A program made the position numbers and the translations under genes. From contig NZ_LIRJ01000031.1 of assembly GCF_001419745.1 (NCBI RefSeq), forward strand, positions 1 to 64,000: a DNA stretch of 64,000 nucleotides, written 5' to 3'. The notes under the pieces were generated by a model, which was not told the origin of the DNA, made no database searches, and worked only from the letters and a program-made list of their open reading frames with translations. The DNA comes from Streptomyces silaceus (GTDB lineage Bacteria > Actinomycetota > Actinomycetes > Streptomycetales > Streptomycetaceae). Positions 18,041-23,265 of the stretch are shown one piece after another; position 1 is the first letter of the stretch, and each line of letters opens with the position of its first letter.

Positions 18041-18104
18041 CCCGGCGGGTCAAATCATTGCCAAAGGGGCATAGGACCCCTTAACCCATCGGTCACACAT
18101 CGTT

Positions 18105-18114
18105 CGTGATCACG
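18105..18114. promoter_or_regulatory. Palindrome CGTGATCACG upstream of the ACT-GNAT gene
   Basis: A perfect 10-base palindrome 27 bp before the start, overlapping a weak 11-base direct repeat (GGTCACACATC, GTTCGTGATCA; 18091-18112) that faintly resembles a PHO box. A short hairpin (AAGGGG, 7-base loop, CCCCTT; 18064-18082) precedes it and may end phoD transcription. Confidence 0.3.
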
Positions 18115-18140
18115 CAACACCGGTCCAGCACAGTGGCCGT

Positions 18141-19628
18141 ATGAGAGCTGAGATGTCTGACGTGACACGGACGAAGCACGGTCGCCCCGTTCACCACTGG
18201 CGGCGCGACCTCGTCGAACTGGCGGCCCTGTTCACGGCCGTCGCGGTGGCCGACGCCGTGGCGAACATGATCGGGCACGGCCCCGACGGGCCCGCCCTGC
18301 TGGTGGTGTCGGCCGTGGTGCTCCTGGCCACGGTCGGCTTCCACACATGGTGGGCACGACGCCACAACCACGCACCGCCGACGGCGCACGATACCGGCAC
18401 CCGGTCTCCCGCGGACGCGGAGCGGACCGGGCCCGAGCCCACCACGGCCACGACCACCACCACGCCCGCGGCGTCCGAAGGCCAGGTGCCGGGCGCGGGC
18501 ACCCTGTGGCGGATGCGGACGACGGTGCGGGACGAGCCGGGGTCCCTGGCCGCGCTGTGCGTGTCGCTCGCCGAGCGGCGCGTGGACATCCTGAGCCTGC
18601 AGGCCCACCCGCTGGCCGAGGGCACCGTGGACGAGTTCCTGCTGCGCACTCCCGACGACCTGTCGGCCTCCGAGATCACCCGGGCCGTCTCCCGCGCGGG
18701 CGGTTCCGGCACCTGGATCGAGCGCGCCGACGCCCACGACCTGGTGGACGCCCCCACCCGCATCCTGGGCCTGGCCACCCGCACGGCGCTCGACGCGGCC
18801 GAACTCCCCCTCGCGCTGCGGCATCTGCTCGGCCGCTGCACGATCCGCTCGCTGCCCGCCGCGACGCGCAAGGGCGAGGCGGCGTCGGCGGAGGGCAGCC
18901 CGGTCGACGGCGTACTCGAGGACACCGTGCTCCGGCTCAAGGGCCCCGAGGGCGAAGTGATCACCGTGGAGCGGCCCTATCTGCCCTTCACGCCGACCGA
19001 GTTCGCCCGCGCGCGGGCCCTGGTCGAGCTGGACACGCGCCTCGGCCCGCGCATCCCGCGCAGCCAGGACGTCCTGACGCTGCCGGAGGGGGACTCCATC
19101 ACCGTGCGCCGGGCCGACACCGGCGACGTCGACACCGCCAAGGCCATGCACGAGCGGTGCTCGCCGCGCACGCTGAGCATGCGGTACCACGGCCCCGTGC
19201 GCGACGCGGACCGCTATCTCAACCACCTGCTCAGCCCCCGGTTCGGCCGCACCCTCGCGGTGCAGACCGCGTCCGGCCGGATCGTCGGGCTCGGCCACCT
19301 CCTCTGGGACGGCGACGAGACCGAGGTCGCCCTCCTGGTCGAGGACGGCTGGCAGCGCCGCGGCATCGGCAGCCAGCTGCTCGGCCGCCTCGTGGCGATG
19401 GCGGTCGAGGCGGGCTGCGAGAGCGTGTACGCGGTGACGCAGGCGTCCAACACGGGCATGGTCGCCGCGATGCGCGGGCTCGGCCTGCCGCTCGACTACC
19501 AGATCGAGGAGGGCACGCTCGTGATCACGGCCCGCCTCGACGCGACGCCGGTCGGCTCACGCCTGCCGTACGACGTCCAGGACGGGCGGGACGGCCCGGC
19601 CGAACGCCATCAGCAGGCCGAGCACTGA
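18141..19628 (+). CDS. Membrane-anchored ACT-domain GNAT acetyltransferase
   Basis: 495 aa (ATG 18153 is an alternative start). Two hydrophobic helices lie at about residues 24-45 and 51-70, then a Thr/Pro-rich linker (TTATTTTTP), an ACT domain at about 121-195 (RMRTTVRDEPGSLAALCVSLAERRVDILSLQ, where EPGSLAAL is the typical ligand turn), a middle segment, and a GNAT domain at about 318-465 with acetyl-CoA motif QRRGIG at 405-410. Soluble ACT-GNAT proteins of actinomycetes are amino-acid-regulated protein lysine acetyltransferases. The added membrane anchor would place such an enzyme at the inner face of the membrane. The target protein is unknown. Confidence 0.88.
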   Translation: MRAEMSDVTRTKHGRPVHHWRRDLVELAALFTAVAVADAVANMIGHGPDGPALLVVSAVVLLATVGFHTWWARRHNHAPPTAHDTGTRSPADAERTGPEPTTATTTTTPAASEGQVPGAGTLWRMRTTVRDEPGSLAALCVSLAERRVDILSLQAHPLAEGTVDEFLLRTPDDLSASEITRAVSRAGGSGTWIERADAHDLVDAPTRILGLATRTALDAAELPLALRHLLGRCTIRSLPAATRKGEAASAEGSPVDGVLEDTVLRLKGPEGEVITVERPYLPFTPTEFARARALVELDTRLGPRIPRSQDVLTLPEGDSITVRRADTGDVDTAKAMHERCSPRTLSMRYHGPVRDADRYLNHLLSPRFGRTLAVQTASGRIVGLGHLLWDGDETEVALLVEDGWQRRGIGSQLLGRLVAMAVEAGCESVYAVTQASNTGMVAAMRGLGLPLDYQIEEGTLVITARLDATPVGSRLPYDVQDGRDGPAERHQQAEH

Positions 19629-19699: not shown

Positions 19700-20938
19700 T
19701 CACAGTGCGGGGGCGGCCTCCGCGACGGGCCGCTTCGCCCCGACGGGCGCCGCCCCTGTCACCGCGACCGGTCCCAGCGCCCGGTCCAGGTCCCCCCACA
19801 GGTCCTCGACGTCCTCCAGCCCGCACGACATGCGCAGCAGCCGGTCGCTCACCCCGGACGAGTGCCGGTCGCCGACGTCCACCACGCGGTGGCTGATGGA
19901 CGCCGGGTGCTGGATCAGCGAGTCGACGCTGCCGAGGCTGACCGCCGGGGTGATCAGCCGTACCCCGGCGATCACTCCGTGCGGGTCGCCGCAGACCTCG
20001 AAGGCGACCATGGCGCCGCCGATCCGTGGGTAGTGCACGCGGGTCACGCGCGGGTCGGCGGCCAGCCTGCGGGCCAGTTCCGCCGCGTTCGCCGACGCCG
20101 CCCGCACCCGGACCGGCAGCGTGGAAAGACCGCGCAGCAGCAGGTACCCGGCGAGCGGATGCAGCACCCCGCCGGTGGCGAAGCGCACCTGGCGCAGCTG
20201 CCGCGCGAACTCCTCGTCGCACGCGACCACCCCGCCCAGGACGTCGCCGTGCCCGCCCAGGTACTTCGTGGCGCTGTGCAGCACCAGGCGGGCGCCACTC
20301 TCGACGGGCCGCTGCAGCACGGGCGTGGCGAAGGTGTTGTCGGCGAGCAGCGGCACCTCGCCGCACGCGTGGGCGATCGCGCGCAGGTCGAGTTCGGCAA
20401 GGGTGGGGTTGGCGGGCGACTCGACCATCACCAGGCCGGTGTCGGGGCGGATGGCGTCCGCGATGCCCGCCGGGTCGACCCAGGTCACCTCCGTACCGAC
20501 CAGACCCGCGGTGAGCAGGTGGTCGCTGCAGCCGTACAGCGGGCGGACGGCCACGACGTGGCGCAGGCCCGCGGCCCCTCGTACGAGAAGAACGGCGGTC
20601 AGCGCCGCCATGCCGCTCGCGAACGCGACCGCGCTTTCCGTGCCTTCGAGTCGGGCGAGGGCCGTCTCGAAACGGGCCACGGTGGGATTGCCGAGGCGGG
20701 CGTAGACCGGCGGCCCGTCGTCGACGGTCCCGTCGGCGGCGAAGGCGTCGATGCGCGCGGCCTCGGCCCGGCTGTCGCGGGAAGGGTAGGTCGTGGAGAG
20801 GTCGATCGGCGGGGCGTGCAGGCCGAGGTCGGCCAGGTCGTCACGGCCCGCGTGGACGGCCTCGGTGGCCAGGGCACGCGGCGGTGACGCGGCGTCGGCG
20901 GAGGGGCGGTGCGGTGCTGTCCCGGTGTTCGCTTCCAT
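19700..20938 (-). CDS. Cys/Met metabolism PLP-dependent enzyme (cystathionine/methionine gamma-lyase type)
   Basis: 412 aa from MEANTGTAPHRPS (ATG complement at 20936-20938). Fold type I gamma-family features are present: YARLGNPT (80-87), with Tyr and Arg that bind PLP phosphate of the neighbouring subunit, and FASGMAALTAVLL. ADNTFATPVLQRP supplies the Asp for the pyridine nitrogen, and SATKYLGGHGD has the PLP lysine K225. An adjacent divergent Lrp regulator is typical for catabolic members such as methionine or cystathionine gamma-lyase. The exact reaction (lyase versus synthase) cannot be read from sequence alone. Confidence 0.88.
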   Translation of the reverse strand: MEANTGTAPHRPSADAASPPRALATEAVHAGRDDLADLGLHAPPIDLSTTYPSRDSRAEAARIDAFAADGTVDDGPPVYARLGNPTVARFETALARLEGTESAVAFASGMAALTAVLLVRGAAGLRHVVAVRPLYGCSDHLLTAGLVGTEVTWVDPAGIADAIRPDTGLVMVESPANPTLAELDLRAIAHACGEVPLLADNTFATPVLQRPVESGARLVLHSATKYLGGHGDVLGGVVACDEEFARQLRQVRFATGGVLHPLAGYLLLRGLSTLPVRVRAASANAAELARRLAADPRVTRVHYPRIGGAMVAFEVCGDPHGVIAGVRLITPAVSLGSVDSLIQHPASISHRVVDVGDRHSSGVSDRLLRMSCGLEDVEDLWGDLDRALGPVAVTGAAPVGAKRPVAEAAPAL

Positions 20939-20959
20939 GTCGCACAGGCTGAACAACGG

Positions 20960-20977
20960 CCGGAGACCGGTGTCCGG
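20960..20977. promoter_or_regulatory. Inverted repeat in divergent PLP enzyme/Lrp promoter
   Basis: CCGGA (20960-20964), 8-base spacer, TCCGG (20973-20977) in the 60-bp gap between divergent starts. Position and size suit an Lrp binding site, but the match is short. Confidence 0.3.
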
Positions 20978-20998
20978 ATGCCGTGCTACGTTCGGCCG

Positions 20999-21499
20999 AT
21001 GGCCGAATCTGTCGCACTGGACCCGGTGGACCTGCATATTTTGCGCCTGCTGCAGAACGACGCCCGGACCACGTACCGCGACCTGGCGGCACAGGTCGGT
21101 GTCGCGCCCTCCACGTGTCTCGACCGTGTGACGCGGCTGCGGCGCTCGGGAGTGATTCTCGGACACGACCTGCGGCTCGACCCGGCGAAACTCGGCCGCG
21201 GGCTCGAAGCGCTGCTTTCCGTACAGGTGCGGCCGCACCGCCGGGATCTCGTGGGCCCGTTCATCGAGCGGGTGCGGGCCCTGCCCGAGTCGCTGTCCCT
21301 CTTCCATCTCACGGGGCCCGACGACTTCCTGGTGCATGTGGCGGTGGCGGGGCCCGCGGATCTGCAGCGGCTCGTCCTCGACGAGTTCACGGCGCGGCGC
21401 GAAGTGGCACGCGTGGAGACACGGCTGATCTTCCAGCAGTGGGCGTGCGGCCCGCTGCTGCCGCCCGACGCGACGACCGGGGCCGTTTCGGATCACTGA
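20999..21499 (+). CDS. Lrp/AsnC family transcriptional regulator
   Basis: 166 aa from ATG 20999 (MAESVALDPVDLHILRLLQND); ATG 20978 in the same frame would add seven residues. The N-terminal helix-turn-helix (TYRDLAAQVGVAPSTCLDRVTRLRRSGVILG) is followed by the RAM effector domain (LSVQVRPHRRDLVGPFIERVRALPESLSLFHLTGPDDFLVHVAV). It is divergent from the PLP enzyme across 60 bp and probably controls it in response to an amino acid, by analogy with Lrp-type local regulators. Confidence 0.92.
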   Translation: MAESVALDPVDLHILRLLQNDARTTYRDLAAQVGVAPSTCLDRVTRLRRSGVILGHDLRLDPAKLGRGLEALLSVQVRPHRRDLVGPFIERVRALPESLSLFHLTGPDDFLVHVAVAGPADLQRLVLDEFTARREVARVETRLIFQQWACGPLLPPDATTGAVSDH

Positions 21500-21546
21500 G
21501 GCCGATCCTGCTGACGCGCGCCCGTCCCTCGTACGAGGATGTCCGC

Positions 21547-23265
21547 ATGTCAGACACGAAGAACCCGCAGCCGAACGCCGGTCTCCTGCCCCGCGCCGTC
21601 GCCGACGCCTTTGTCGACGAGCTGATCGCCCTCGACCCCGTCACGGGCACCTATCTCGGCGTCGAGGAGAGCAACAGCAAGCTCCCGGACACCTCCCCCG
21701 AGGGCCAGGAGGCCCTCGCCCGCCTGGCCCGCACGACGCTCGCCCGGCTCGACGAGGCGGAGCGCCTGCCCGGCGCGGACAGTGAGATCGAACGCCGCTG
21801 CGGTCGGCTGCTCCGGGAGCGGCTCACCGCCCAGCTGGCGGTGCACGAGGCTGGCGAAGGACTGCGCGCGGTCGGCAATCTCCACACGATGCCGCACCAG
21901 GTGCGGGAGATCTTCACCGTGACGCCCATGGAGACCGAGGAGGACTGGGCGGCGATCGCGGAGCGGCTGCGGGCCGTCCCGGCCGCGCTGGAGGGTTACC
22001 GCGCGAGCCTCGAACTGGGCCTGGAGCAGAAGCTGTTCGGTCCGCCGCGGCCGACCGCGACGTTCATCGAGCAGCTCACGGAGTGGGCGGGCGAGGGGGG
22101 CGCGGAGCCGAGCGGACGCGGCTGGTTCGAGGACTTCGCGGCCGCGGGCCCGCAGGCGCTGCGCGCCGAGCTCGACGCCGCGGCACGGGCGGCGACCGCG
22201 TCCGTCGTGGCGCTGCGCGACTGGATGCGGGGCGTCTACGCGCCCGCGATCGAGGGCTCTCCGGACGTCGTGGGCCGCGAGCGCTACGCCCGACTGTCCC
22301 GCGAGTGCAACGGCACGGACCTGGATCTGGACGAGGCGTACGCGTACGGCTGGGCGGAGTTCCACCGGCTGCTCGCGGAGATGCGGGCCGAGGCCGAGAA
22401 GATCCTGCCGGGCGCGGAGACGCCGTGGGTGGCGCTCGCCCACCTCGACGAGCACGGCACGCACATCGAGGGTGTCGAGGAGGTCCGCGTCTGGCTGCAG
22501 GAGCTGATGGACGAGGCCATCGACGCGCTGGACGGCACGCACTTCGAACTCGCCGAGCGGGTGCGGAAGGTGGAGTCCCACATCGCCCCGCCCGGCGGCG
22601 CGGCGGCCCCCTACTACACGGGCCCGTCCGAGGACTTCTCGCGCCCCGGCCGCACCTGGCTGCCCACGATGGGCGACACCCGCTTCCCGGTCTACGACCT
22701 GGTCTCGACCTGGTACCACGAGGGCGTACCCGGCCATCACCTCCAGCTGGCCCAGTGGGCGCACGTCGCGGAGAACCTCTCCCGCTACCAGGCGACCGTC
22801 GGCATCGTCAGCGCCAACGCCGAGGGCTGGGCGCTGTACGCGGAGCGGCTCATGGACGAGCTCGGCTTCCTGACCGACCCCGAGCGCAGGCTCGGCTACC
22901 TGGACGCCCAGATGATGCGGGCGCTGCGGGTCATCGTCGACATCGGCATGCACCTGGAAATGGAGATTCCGGCGGACTCGCCCTTCCACCCGGGCGAGCG
23001 CTGGACGCCCGACCTCGCCCAGGAGTTCTACGACGCGCACTGCAGCCGTCCCACGGACTACGTGACGAGCGAGATGACGCGGTACCTCACCATCCCCGGC
23101 CAGGCCATCGGCTACAAACTCGGCGAGCGCGCCTGGCTGCTGGGCCGGGAGAACGCGCGCCGCCGGCACGGTGACGCGTTCGACGCCAAGGCCTGGCACA
23201 TGGCCGCGCTCTCGCAGGGCTCGCTGGGCCTGGACGACCTGGTCGACGAGCTGTCCAAGCTGTGA
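21547..23265 (+). CDS. DUF885 family metallohydrolase
   Basis: 572 aa from ATG 21547. The DUF885 hallmark HEGVPGHH is at 391-398 (His391, Glu392, His397/His398), a zinc-peptidase-like variant of HExxH. Further conserved pieces are WLPTMGDTRFPVYDLVSTWYHE, NAEGWALYAERLMDELGF and the C-terminal YLTIPGQAIGYKLGERAWL. No signal peptide, so cytoplasmic. Family members resemble M2/M32-like gluzincin carboxypeptidases but mostly lack known substrates. The stop overlaps the start of the next (broken) gene. Confidence 0.88.
   Translation: MSDTKNPQPNAGLLPRAVADAFVDELIALDPVTGTYLGVEESNSKLPDTSPEGQEALARLARTTLARLDEAERLPGADSEIERRCGRLLRERLTAQLAVHEAGEGLRAVGNLHTMPHQVREIFTVTPMETEEDWAAIAERLRAVPAALEGYRASLELGLEQKLFGPPRPTATFIEQLTEWAGEGGAEPSGRGWFEDFAAAGPQALRAELDAAARAATASVVALRDWMRGVYAPAIEGSPDVVGRERYARLSRECNGTDLDLDEAYAYGWAEFHRLLAEMRAEAEKILPGAETPWVALAHLDEHGTHIEGVEEVRVWLQELMDEAIDALDGTHFELAERVRKVESHIAPPGGAAAPYYTGPSEDFSRPGRTWLPTMGDTRFPVYDLVSTWYHEGVPGHHLQLAQWAHVAENLSRYQATVGIVSANAEGWALYAERLMDELGFLTDPERRLGYLDAQMMRALRVIVDIGMHLEMEIPADSPFHPGERWTPDLAQEFYDAHCSRPTDYVTSEMTRYLTIPGQAIGYKLGERAWLLGRENARRRHGDAFDAKAWHMAALSQGSLGLDDLVDELSKL

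Follow-up and report, generated by a model that had tools for sequence, protein, structure and literature searches.

The locus at 18141..19628 of the Streptomyces silaceus window (the whole 64,000-nt stretch of DNA analysed) raises the question of whether an ACT-GNAT acetyltransferase can be held at the membrane and, if so, under what control and near which cellular function it would work. A sequence-only reading had described two membrane helices and a Thr-rich linker ahead of ACT and GNAT domains, had compared the product with the ACT-GNAT enzymes of actinomycetes, and, as phoD precedes the gene, had connected the tether with transporters or the uptake of phosphate.

Domain layout and the N-terminal hairpin

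The open reading frame was confirmed in the window. It starts with an ATG and encodes a single protein of 495 aa having, from the N- to the C-terminus, a two-helix membrane hairpin, a Thr-rich linker, an ACT domain, a middle domain and a GNAT domain (Table 1), so the architecture proposed earlier holds. The middle domain was absent from that description. In the AlphaFold model it shows the order helix-helix-strand-strand-strand-helix.

Table 1. Features of the gene and of its upstream region in window coordinates
Feature	Coordinates	Strand	Evidence or remark
GlnR box TTAAC-n6-GTCAC (predicted)	18081..18096	+	begins 60 nt ahead of the ATG
Second conserved element TTCGT-n6-GCAAC, holding the palindrome CGTGATCACG	18103..18118	+	palindrome conservation, consensus
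-10-like hexamer CACAGT	18129..18134	+	motif conservation
Hairpin-linker-ACT-middle-GNAT gene, 495 aa	18141..19628	+	ORF and translation
Membrane helix 1 (predicted), residues 19-46	18195..18278	+	hydropathy, conservation, AlphaFold, pN/pS
Membrane helix 2 (predicted), residues 50-75	18288..18365	+	hydropathy, conservation, AlphaFold, pN/pS
Thr/Ala/Pro-rich linker, residues 76-119, not conserved except 76-80	18366..18497	+	pN/pS 1.08 over residues 81-119
ACT domain, residues 120-196; DxPGxL loop 131-136	18498..18728	+	Pfam, AlphaFold, fold match
Middle domain, residues ~197-308	18729..19064	+	AlphaFold; pN/pS 0.26 over residues 196-305
GNAT acetyltransferase domain, residues 309-467; Glu395; QRRGIG 405-410	19065..19541	+	Pfam, fold match

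The GNAT domain scored 37.5 bits against Pfam Acetyltransf_1 (cut-off 20.7), and its closest solved folds are the lysine acetyltransferases Rv0998, S. lividans Pat and E. coli PatZ. The acetyl-CoA motif QXXGX(G/A) is present, and E395, Q405, G408 and G410 are each invariant in all 65 GNAT-bearing rows of the alignment. From the alignment with PatZ, Glu395 would correspond to the catalytic glutamate of the active site. The ACT domain reached 17.1 bits in Pfam, under the cut-off of 27, and its assignment is therefore decided by the fold: when the ACT-middle module was modelled alone (AlphaFold, pLDDT 86), model residues 1-85 matched solved ACT domains. The matches returned by these fold searches were filled by the ACT part, so they have little bearing on the middle domain. 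The loop between beta1 and alpha1 of the ACT domain (DXPGXL) reads DEPGSL, with P133, G134 and L136 present in 76 of 76 aligned sequences and D131 in 72 of 76. The full-length AlphaFold model (36 related sequences) had a mean pLDDT of 78 and a pTM of 0.51, with a disordered linker (pLDDT <50 at residues 77-96 and 98-115) followed by an ACT-like stretch at 121-195, the middle domain at about 204-301 and the GNAT stretch at about 310-465. The gene is present in a single copy in its own genome, where two extra weak GNAT matches belong to other proteins.

Several lines of evidence point to the hairpin as a genuine part of the protein. The best 19-residue Kyte-Doolittle means were 1.78 (residues 27-45) and 1.98 (residues 52-70), and AlphaFold places a helix over each of these stretches. 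The mean net charge across 58 orthologues was +4.1 for the N-terminal tail, -0.8 for the loop and +1.9 for the segment following helix 2; by the positive-inside rule this pattern argues for an N-in/C-in topology, with the ACT and GNAT domains in the cytosol. The mean frequency of the majority residue was 0.90 for helix 1, 0.80 for helix 2, 0.45 for the linker and 0.90 for the GNAT domain, and 0.94 for residues 73-80. The corresponding pN/pS values were 0.21 (helix 1), 0.43 (helix 2), 1.08 (linker) and 0.23 (GNAT). By these measures helix 1 is as constrained as the GNAT domain, and the hairpin appears to be no chance feature. From the two conserved hydrophobic helices of membrane-crossing length and the positive-inside charge, we infer that the hairpin sits in the membrane. 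In the open-access literature that we searched, we found neither localisation data nor a report of a membrane part.

The start of the protein is conserved as well. In most listed orthologues the ATG corresponds to residue 1 or to residue 5 of the window protein, not to one beyond residue 110, and with a start at either position the spacing to the -10-like motif and the GlnR box is unchanged. Nor are the helices confined to this genome. We drew 197 genomes from the order, 182 of them in the family of the window (f1). One of these 182 had no match, two had a GNAT by itself (about 180 aa), and 179 had an ACT-GNAT orthologue; among the 179, both helices were present in 133, one helix in 8 and none in 36, and 2 with runs of N were left unclassified. 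For this tally, strong hairpin matches were counted as two helices, weak or absent ones were read individually, and 15 unmatched genomes were assigned by elimination against the genome list. Two loci having a hydrophobic hairpin once read from the box-marked start were counted as two-helix. In one genome the hairpin and the enzyme looked separated, but that locus is one of the two with runs of N. In 78 of 80 named Streptomyces loci the alignment sets in within the first 25 residues. The predicted two-helix anchored version is the common Streptomyces form of the ACT-GNAT enzyme.

Orthologues devoid of the transmembrane helices retain similar N-terminal residues and upstream DNA. Two of them lie at different places in the trees, which makes repeated loss of the hairpin probable. 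The 36 hairpin-less and 8 one-helix orthologues keep ACT-GNAT, so that retention of this part does not depend on the tether.

Kinship with SvePatA and probable control by nitrogen

The S. venezuelae protein SvePatA (Sven_0867) has been described as an asparagine-activated acetyltransferase of acetyl-CoA synthetase (Acs), and 24 of the 24 family members tested in the same study acetylated Acs in vitro (Lu et al. 2017, PMC6434083). The residues given there for asparagine docking in SvePatA are D109, K112, P113, E114 and C139. Just one of our 76 sequences, L027, carries all five, and its upstream DNA contains TTAACCCGTCAGTCAC, the GlnR site published for Sven_0867 (PMC3087709). The best 80 named-genome matches to L027 are all from Streptomyces, with identities up to 92% (S. 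exfoliatus 91%, S. zaomyceticus 88%); S. venezuelae does not occur among these 80. We presume that L027 is the SvePatA gene of S. venezuelae. It is 71% identical to the window protein at the amino acid level, and on this sequence evidence the window gene is orthologous to the characterised asparagine-type gene (SvePatA/Sven_0867/SCO1293). The earlier comparison with actinomycete ACT-GNAT enzymes was therefore right in kind but incomplete, since the anchored form is common in Streptomyces and a presumed S. venezuelae orthologue had already been characterised. By analogy with these relatives, the window protein is predicted to be activated by asparagine and to acetylate Acs.

If L027 is SvePatA, the SvePatA gene also encodes the hairpin, which is counted in the published numbering, and residues D109 to E114 lie in the linker. 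The K112A and P113A substitutions were without effect, and asparagine activation was kept (PMC6434083); this would be expected of residues in a linker for which we detect no constraint. As many as four of the five docking residues would fall there, which points to the ACT loop instead, and the published asparagine site is unsettled given the K112A and P113A results.

Lu et al. worked with purified Streptomyces enzymes. Their main text uses none of the words transmembrane, soluble, GlnR and nitrogen and has 'membrane' for blotting only; we found no mention of the hairpin, the GlnR box or the middle domain there (PMC6434083). The word 'membrane' is likewise absent from a commentary (PMC5861322), and the passages on ACT-GNATs in a 2021 review give these enzymes no membrane part (PMC8556138). 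As the majority of the Streptomyces forms in our sample are probably membrane proteins, results obtained with purified protein may miss the working site and the targets.

The upstream DNA points to nitrogen control. In 58 of 63 Streptomyces genes, a GlnR box ([GT]TnAC-n6-GTnAC) starts 60 or 61 nt upstream of the start codon; as a control, 12 of 3150 shuffled 110-nt upstream sequences hold one anywhere. When G[AC]nAC was also allowed in the second half, at 59-61 nt, the box was found in all 78 named loci with an aligned N-terminus (2 of the 80 did not align), in 47 of 55 ACT-bearing genes from another set, picked mostly because their hairpins were weak or missing, and in both GNAT-only genes. 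The window box is of the GTnAC-n6-GTnAC type and matches in position the GlnR site listed for Sven_0867. Its occurrence in Streptomyces genes without the hairpin, even in two without ACT, means that the box is not tied to the hairpin alone; as these two GNAT-only genes show, the sensor and the tether can be lost with the box and the enzyme retained.

The second conserved element keeps the 11-bp period of the GlnR box and may be a second GlnR box. In 57 of 58 genes its palindrome, with up to 2 mismatches allowed, starts 36 or 37 nt ahead of the ATG. A CACAGTG-like motif starts 12 or 13 nt before the ATG in 54 of 58 (34 of 1160 shuffled 25-mers hold one anywhere). This -10-like motif, with A and T at -11 and -7 when the ATG is taken as +1, suggests a leaderless transcript.

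Published expression data are consistent with this arrangement. Sven_0867 was induced 6.7-fold on nitrogen starvation, was 5.2-fold lower after ammonium, was non-responsive in a glnR mutant and had a ChIP-chip peak in the 2011 study (PMC3087709), and SCO1293 was reported to be induced by nitrogen limitation (PMC3073908). The window gene also appears to be controlled by GlnR through its predicted site. In the literature that we found, the description of Sven_0867/SCO1293 as a GlnR target (2011) and that of SvePatA as an acetyltransferase (2017) are not joined.

Relatives with other architectures

Outside Streptomyces, we distinguished soluble ACT-middle-GNAT proteins (type A), hairpin-ACT-middle proteins without GNAT (type B), and ACT-middle-GNAT proteins with a TetR-like N-terminus (type D). 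When the best 8 candidates per genome were scored across the class, 141 of 394 genomes had an ACT-middle match with E below 1e-8, of which the weak ones near this limit may be other ACT proteins. Forty loci from outside the order comprised 23 of type A (four of them with weak GNAT matches), 9 of type B, 1 with ACT-middle alone and 7 of type D. The soluble type A paralogues of other families begin right at the ACT domain. Ten further type B genes were read, of which nine belong to family f3 and one to f5. In most type B proteins the hairpin is homologous to that of Streptomyces; L193, L207 and L079 have a different-looking one following a CxxC motif. Pfam names at most ACT, and no acetyltransferase domain, in the five type B proteins scanned. 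Type D was considered as a one-helix membrane protein, and this was rejected as the N-terminus is TetR-like by eye; of two such proteins scanned, one gave a Pfam TetR_N match, below the cut-off.

A search for the hairpin itself, with the best 16 candidates from each of the 394 class genomes, gave at least 50 matches with E below 1e-14, 47 of them in ACT-middle genes (30 from Streptomyces and 17 from f19 type B) and 3 in genes without ACT. The GlnR box occurs at 59-61 nt in 7 of 9 type B genes of f3, in 7 of 17 of f19, in the single anchored gene of f2, and in 2 of 3 lone hairpins, for which boxes 60 or 61 nt before an ATG or GTG were scanned. In type A the box was found in 3 of 34 genes (f19 0/13, f28 3/17, others 0/4). 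The shuffled expectation, where run, was about 0.01 or less per set. The f28 count combines 3 of 7 from a first set, in which four genes have weak GNAT matches (16-31 bits), with 0 of 11 from a second, one genome being repeated, and the second set took in hairpin-less genes without a GNAT check. The box was found in none of the three CxxC-type B genes and none of the seven type D genes, both of which stand outside the A/B counts; of the two genes with ACT-middle alone, one had a box relative to an inner GTG, and it was also kept out. Comparison of 17 of 29 anchored or lone-hairpin genes with 3 of 34 type A genes gave a Fisher p of 3e-5, related genes being counted as independent. The 29 consist of f3 type B (7/9), f19 type B (7/16), the f2 anchored gene (1/1) and the lone hairpins (2/3), with L294, the 17th f19 type B gene and one having no box, left aside. 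The predicted GlnR box is commoner in the anchored lineages than in type A.

Types A and B occurred together in 14 of the 35 f19 genomes searched, all of which had been chosen for having a match. A strict rule that type B needs a type A partner was rejected: A was present in 32 of these 35, B in 17 and B alone in 3, and 11 of 12 f3 genomes have B and none a full A. These A/B counts are not prevalences, because the 55 genomes were chosen for having a match. No type B neighbour was common to distant clades with the crude gene finder used, which missed several genes. In the ACT-middle tree the Streptomyces group joins type B of one f3 genus (support 99/93), on a weak backbone and with type B not forming one clade; in the GNAT tree the anchored group stays together (94/93).

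Proposed role, alternatives and known systems

We consider it probable, taking all parts of the proposal together, that the gene encodes the Streptomyces asparagine-type ACT-GNAT lysine acetyltransferase, held in the membrane by an N-in/C-in hairpin and induced by GlnR. On nitrogen starvation, active GlnR would bind the box 60 nt upstream and switch the promoter on, with a transcript that probably begins at the ATG. The protein would insert by its hairpin at the inner face of the cytoplasmic membrane, from where the flexible linker would let the cytosolic ACT-middle-GNAT part reach soluble substrates. Binding of asparagine to the ACT domain would raise the GNAT activity, and acetyl-CoA synthetase, perhaps with other enzymes, would be acetylated and inactivated, by which acetate activation would be tied to the nitrogen state. 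The most likely purpose of the tether would be the placing of the enzyme at a nitrogen-related membrane site. An enzyme made in starvation and yet activated by asparagine has no obvious logic. The kind of enzyme is already known; what is new is the conserved tether, the link between GlnR and acetylation, and the enzyme-less relatives whose promoters share this layout.

A wider scheme is advanced only tentatively. GlnR box, ATG and hairpin may form a conserved nitrogen-starvation membrane cassette, whose cargo is nothing, ACT-middle (type B), or a sensor with an acetyltransferase. The hairpin would then be a docking element, and type B a membrane amino-acid sensor acting in trans, in some genomes beside a separate soluble ACT-GNAT; the two would be united in Streptomyces.

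That the hairpin is accidental or vestigial, the working enzyme being a soluble form made from an inner start or by cleavage, seems rather unlikely to us. The 36 of 179 orthologues lacking both helices and the 8 lacking one, all with ACT-GNAT kept, would fit such a reading, as would the soluble paralogues elsewhere that start at the ACT domain. However, the pN/pS of helix 1 is near that of the GNAT domain and far under that of the linker, the start codon is equally far from the -10-like motif and the GlnR box in both of its positions (residue 1 or residue 5), and a homologous hairpin recurs in relatives devoid of GNAT. Quite improbable, too, is a protein acting mainly as a small-molecule acetyltransferase such as N-acetylglutamate synthase, in line with older annotations. 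Papers call Sven_0867/SCO1293 an N-acetylglutamate synthase, similar to one, or an N acyl glutamate synthase (PMC3087709, PMC3073908, PMC8981147), and nitrogen control would suit an amino-acid enzyme. The sequence, on the other hand, scored 22.4 bits with the NCBIfam amino-acid N-acetyltransferase model PRK07922, far from its cut-off of 180, protein lysine acetyltransferases are nearest to it in solved fold and in sequence, and every family member tested in vitro acetylated Acs (PMC6434083).

The neighbourhood speaks little for the connection with phosphate uptake, which we regard as very improbable. In the window, phoD (Pfam PhoD, 305.9 bits) does end about 100 nt upstream of the gene, and PhoD was found in 66 of 80 named loci within flanks of up to 6 kb. 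In just 27 of the 80, however, it lies within 800 nt; in most of the others it is about 4.3 kb off, and in 14 no PhoD match was present in these flanks. What is conserved as a control element is the GlnR box, which together with the published GlnR dependence points to nitrogen. SCO1293 protein was reported to be more abundant in phosphate proficiency than in limitation (PMC8981147). The genes kept downstream in the 80 loci are DUF885-like (80), cystathionine-gamma-lyase-like (75) and Lrp-like (75), where labels other than PhoD are our reading of the sequences. For the preferred reading of a nitrogen-controlled anchored enzyme, the 36 of 179 tether-less orthologues, the two GNAT-only genes and the enzyme-less relatives are natural controls for the role of the tether and the sensor.

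Among known systems, the asparagine-type AAPatA enzymes (SvePatA, Sven_0867; ScoPatA, Q93IX7) have the same ACT-GNAT order and motifs and are orthologous, and the window protein differs from them in nothing but sequence divergence. The cysteine type (AmiPatA, MaKat) shares the ACT-middle-GNAT core, but has no hairpin, starts at the ACT domain and rarely has the GlnR box (3 of 34) that the window gene carries; we infer that our type A is this cysteine type from the numbering given for AmiPatA (Asp16/Ser17) and from the host range. The GNAT domain is nearest in fold to that of the mycobacterial cAMP-gated Pat (Rv0998/MSMEG_5458), which also puts an N-terminal small-molecule sensor before a GNAT domain, but has a cyclic-nucleotide domain where the window protein has ACT. 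The mycobacterial enzyme is not known to have a membrane hairpin. AcuB, a Bateman-ACT protein of the acu operon, acts in trans on acetylation by binding and inhibiting the deacetylase AcuC; it has another architecture, senses adenine nucleotides and offers an analogy for type B only (PMC13121692). Type B and the lone hairpins share a homologous hairpin with the window protein. Type B, unlike the window protein, has no acetyltransferase domain, but it also shares the ACT and middle domains, and 14 of 26 type B genes of f3 and f19 have the GlnR box at the same place.

Upstream element and neighbouring genes

Upstream of the studied gene, we noted an element, GTTCGTGATCACGCAAC, whose only exact copy in the genome is the one in the window (see table). 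When up to three mismatches were allowed, the same genome gave 22 matches, whereas the reversed control gave 5. Two of the 22 overlap on contig C119 and together make up a full palindrome, GTTCGTGATCACGAAC. The genes beside the studied gene were largely kept among the 80 loci compared: the DUF885-like gene in all 80, and the cystathionine-gamma-lyase-like and Lrp/AsnC-like genes in 75 each.

Features around the studied gene
Feature	Window position	Strand	Remark
GTTCGTGATCACGCAAC	18102-18118		Between the GlnR box and the -10-like motif
Cystathionine-gamma-lyase-like, Lrp/AsnC-like and DUF885-like genes	about 19700-23265	minus (cystathionine-gamma-lyase-like)	Labels assigned by eye

Reduced and rearranged relatives

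Two Streptomyces loci, L259 (genome G152) and L260 (G079), encode proteins of 180-181 aa with the GNAT domain only, devoid of the hairpin, the ACT and the middle domain; both have the GlnR box TTAACCCCGCGGTCAC 60 nt 5' of the ATG. In eight other Streptomyces orthologues (L261, L262, L266-L268, L271, L274 and L275), a single hydrophobic helix is left, which by eye is the second of the hairpin, and their topology would differ from that of the two-helix form.

The hairpin also occurs alone, in proteins of ∼100 aa from family f19 (L292 and L293) that carry a CxxC motif close to the C-terminal end and have a GlnR box 60 nt 5' of their own ATG. Three hairpin-ACT-middle proteins (L193, L207 and L079) have a C-x-V-C-G motif preceding a hairpin of different appearance; a GlnR box at 59-61 nt was found in none of the three. 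One f2 genome, G037, has both an anchored (L066) and a soluble (L067) ACT-GNAT gene.

In genomes of f22, f29, f36 and f40, a TetR-like N-terminus lies ahead of ACT-middle-GNAT (L218-L224). Two of these proteins were scanned against Pfam: TetR_N scored 19.4 in L221, under the cut-off of 24, and gave no match in L223. From their domain order, L218-L224 are possibly transcription regulators that both sense amino acids and acetylate.

Naming of the orthologues

The available text of PMC6434083 (2017) describes Sven_0867/SCO1293 as a protein acetyltransferase and mentions neither GlnR nor nitrogen. In the available passages of the nitrogen papers, PMC3087709 among them, Sven_0867/SCO1293 is named a putative acetyltransferase or N-acetylglutamate synthase.
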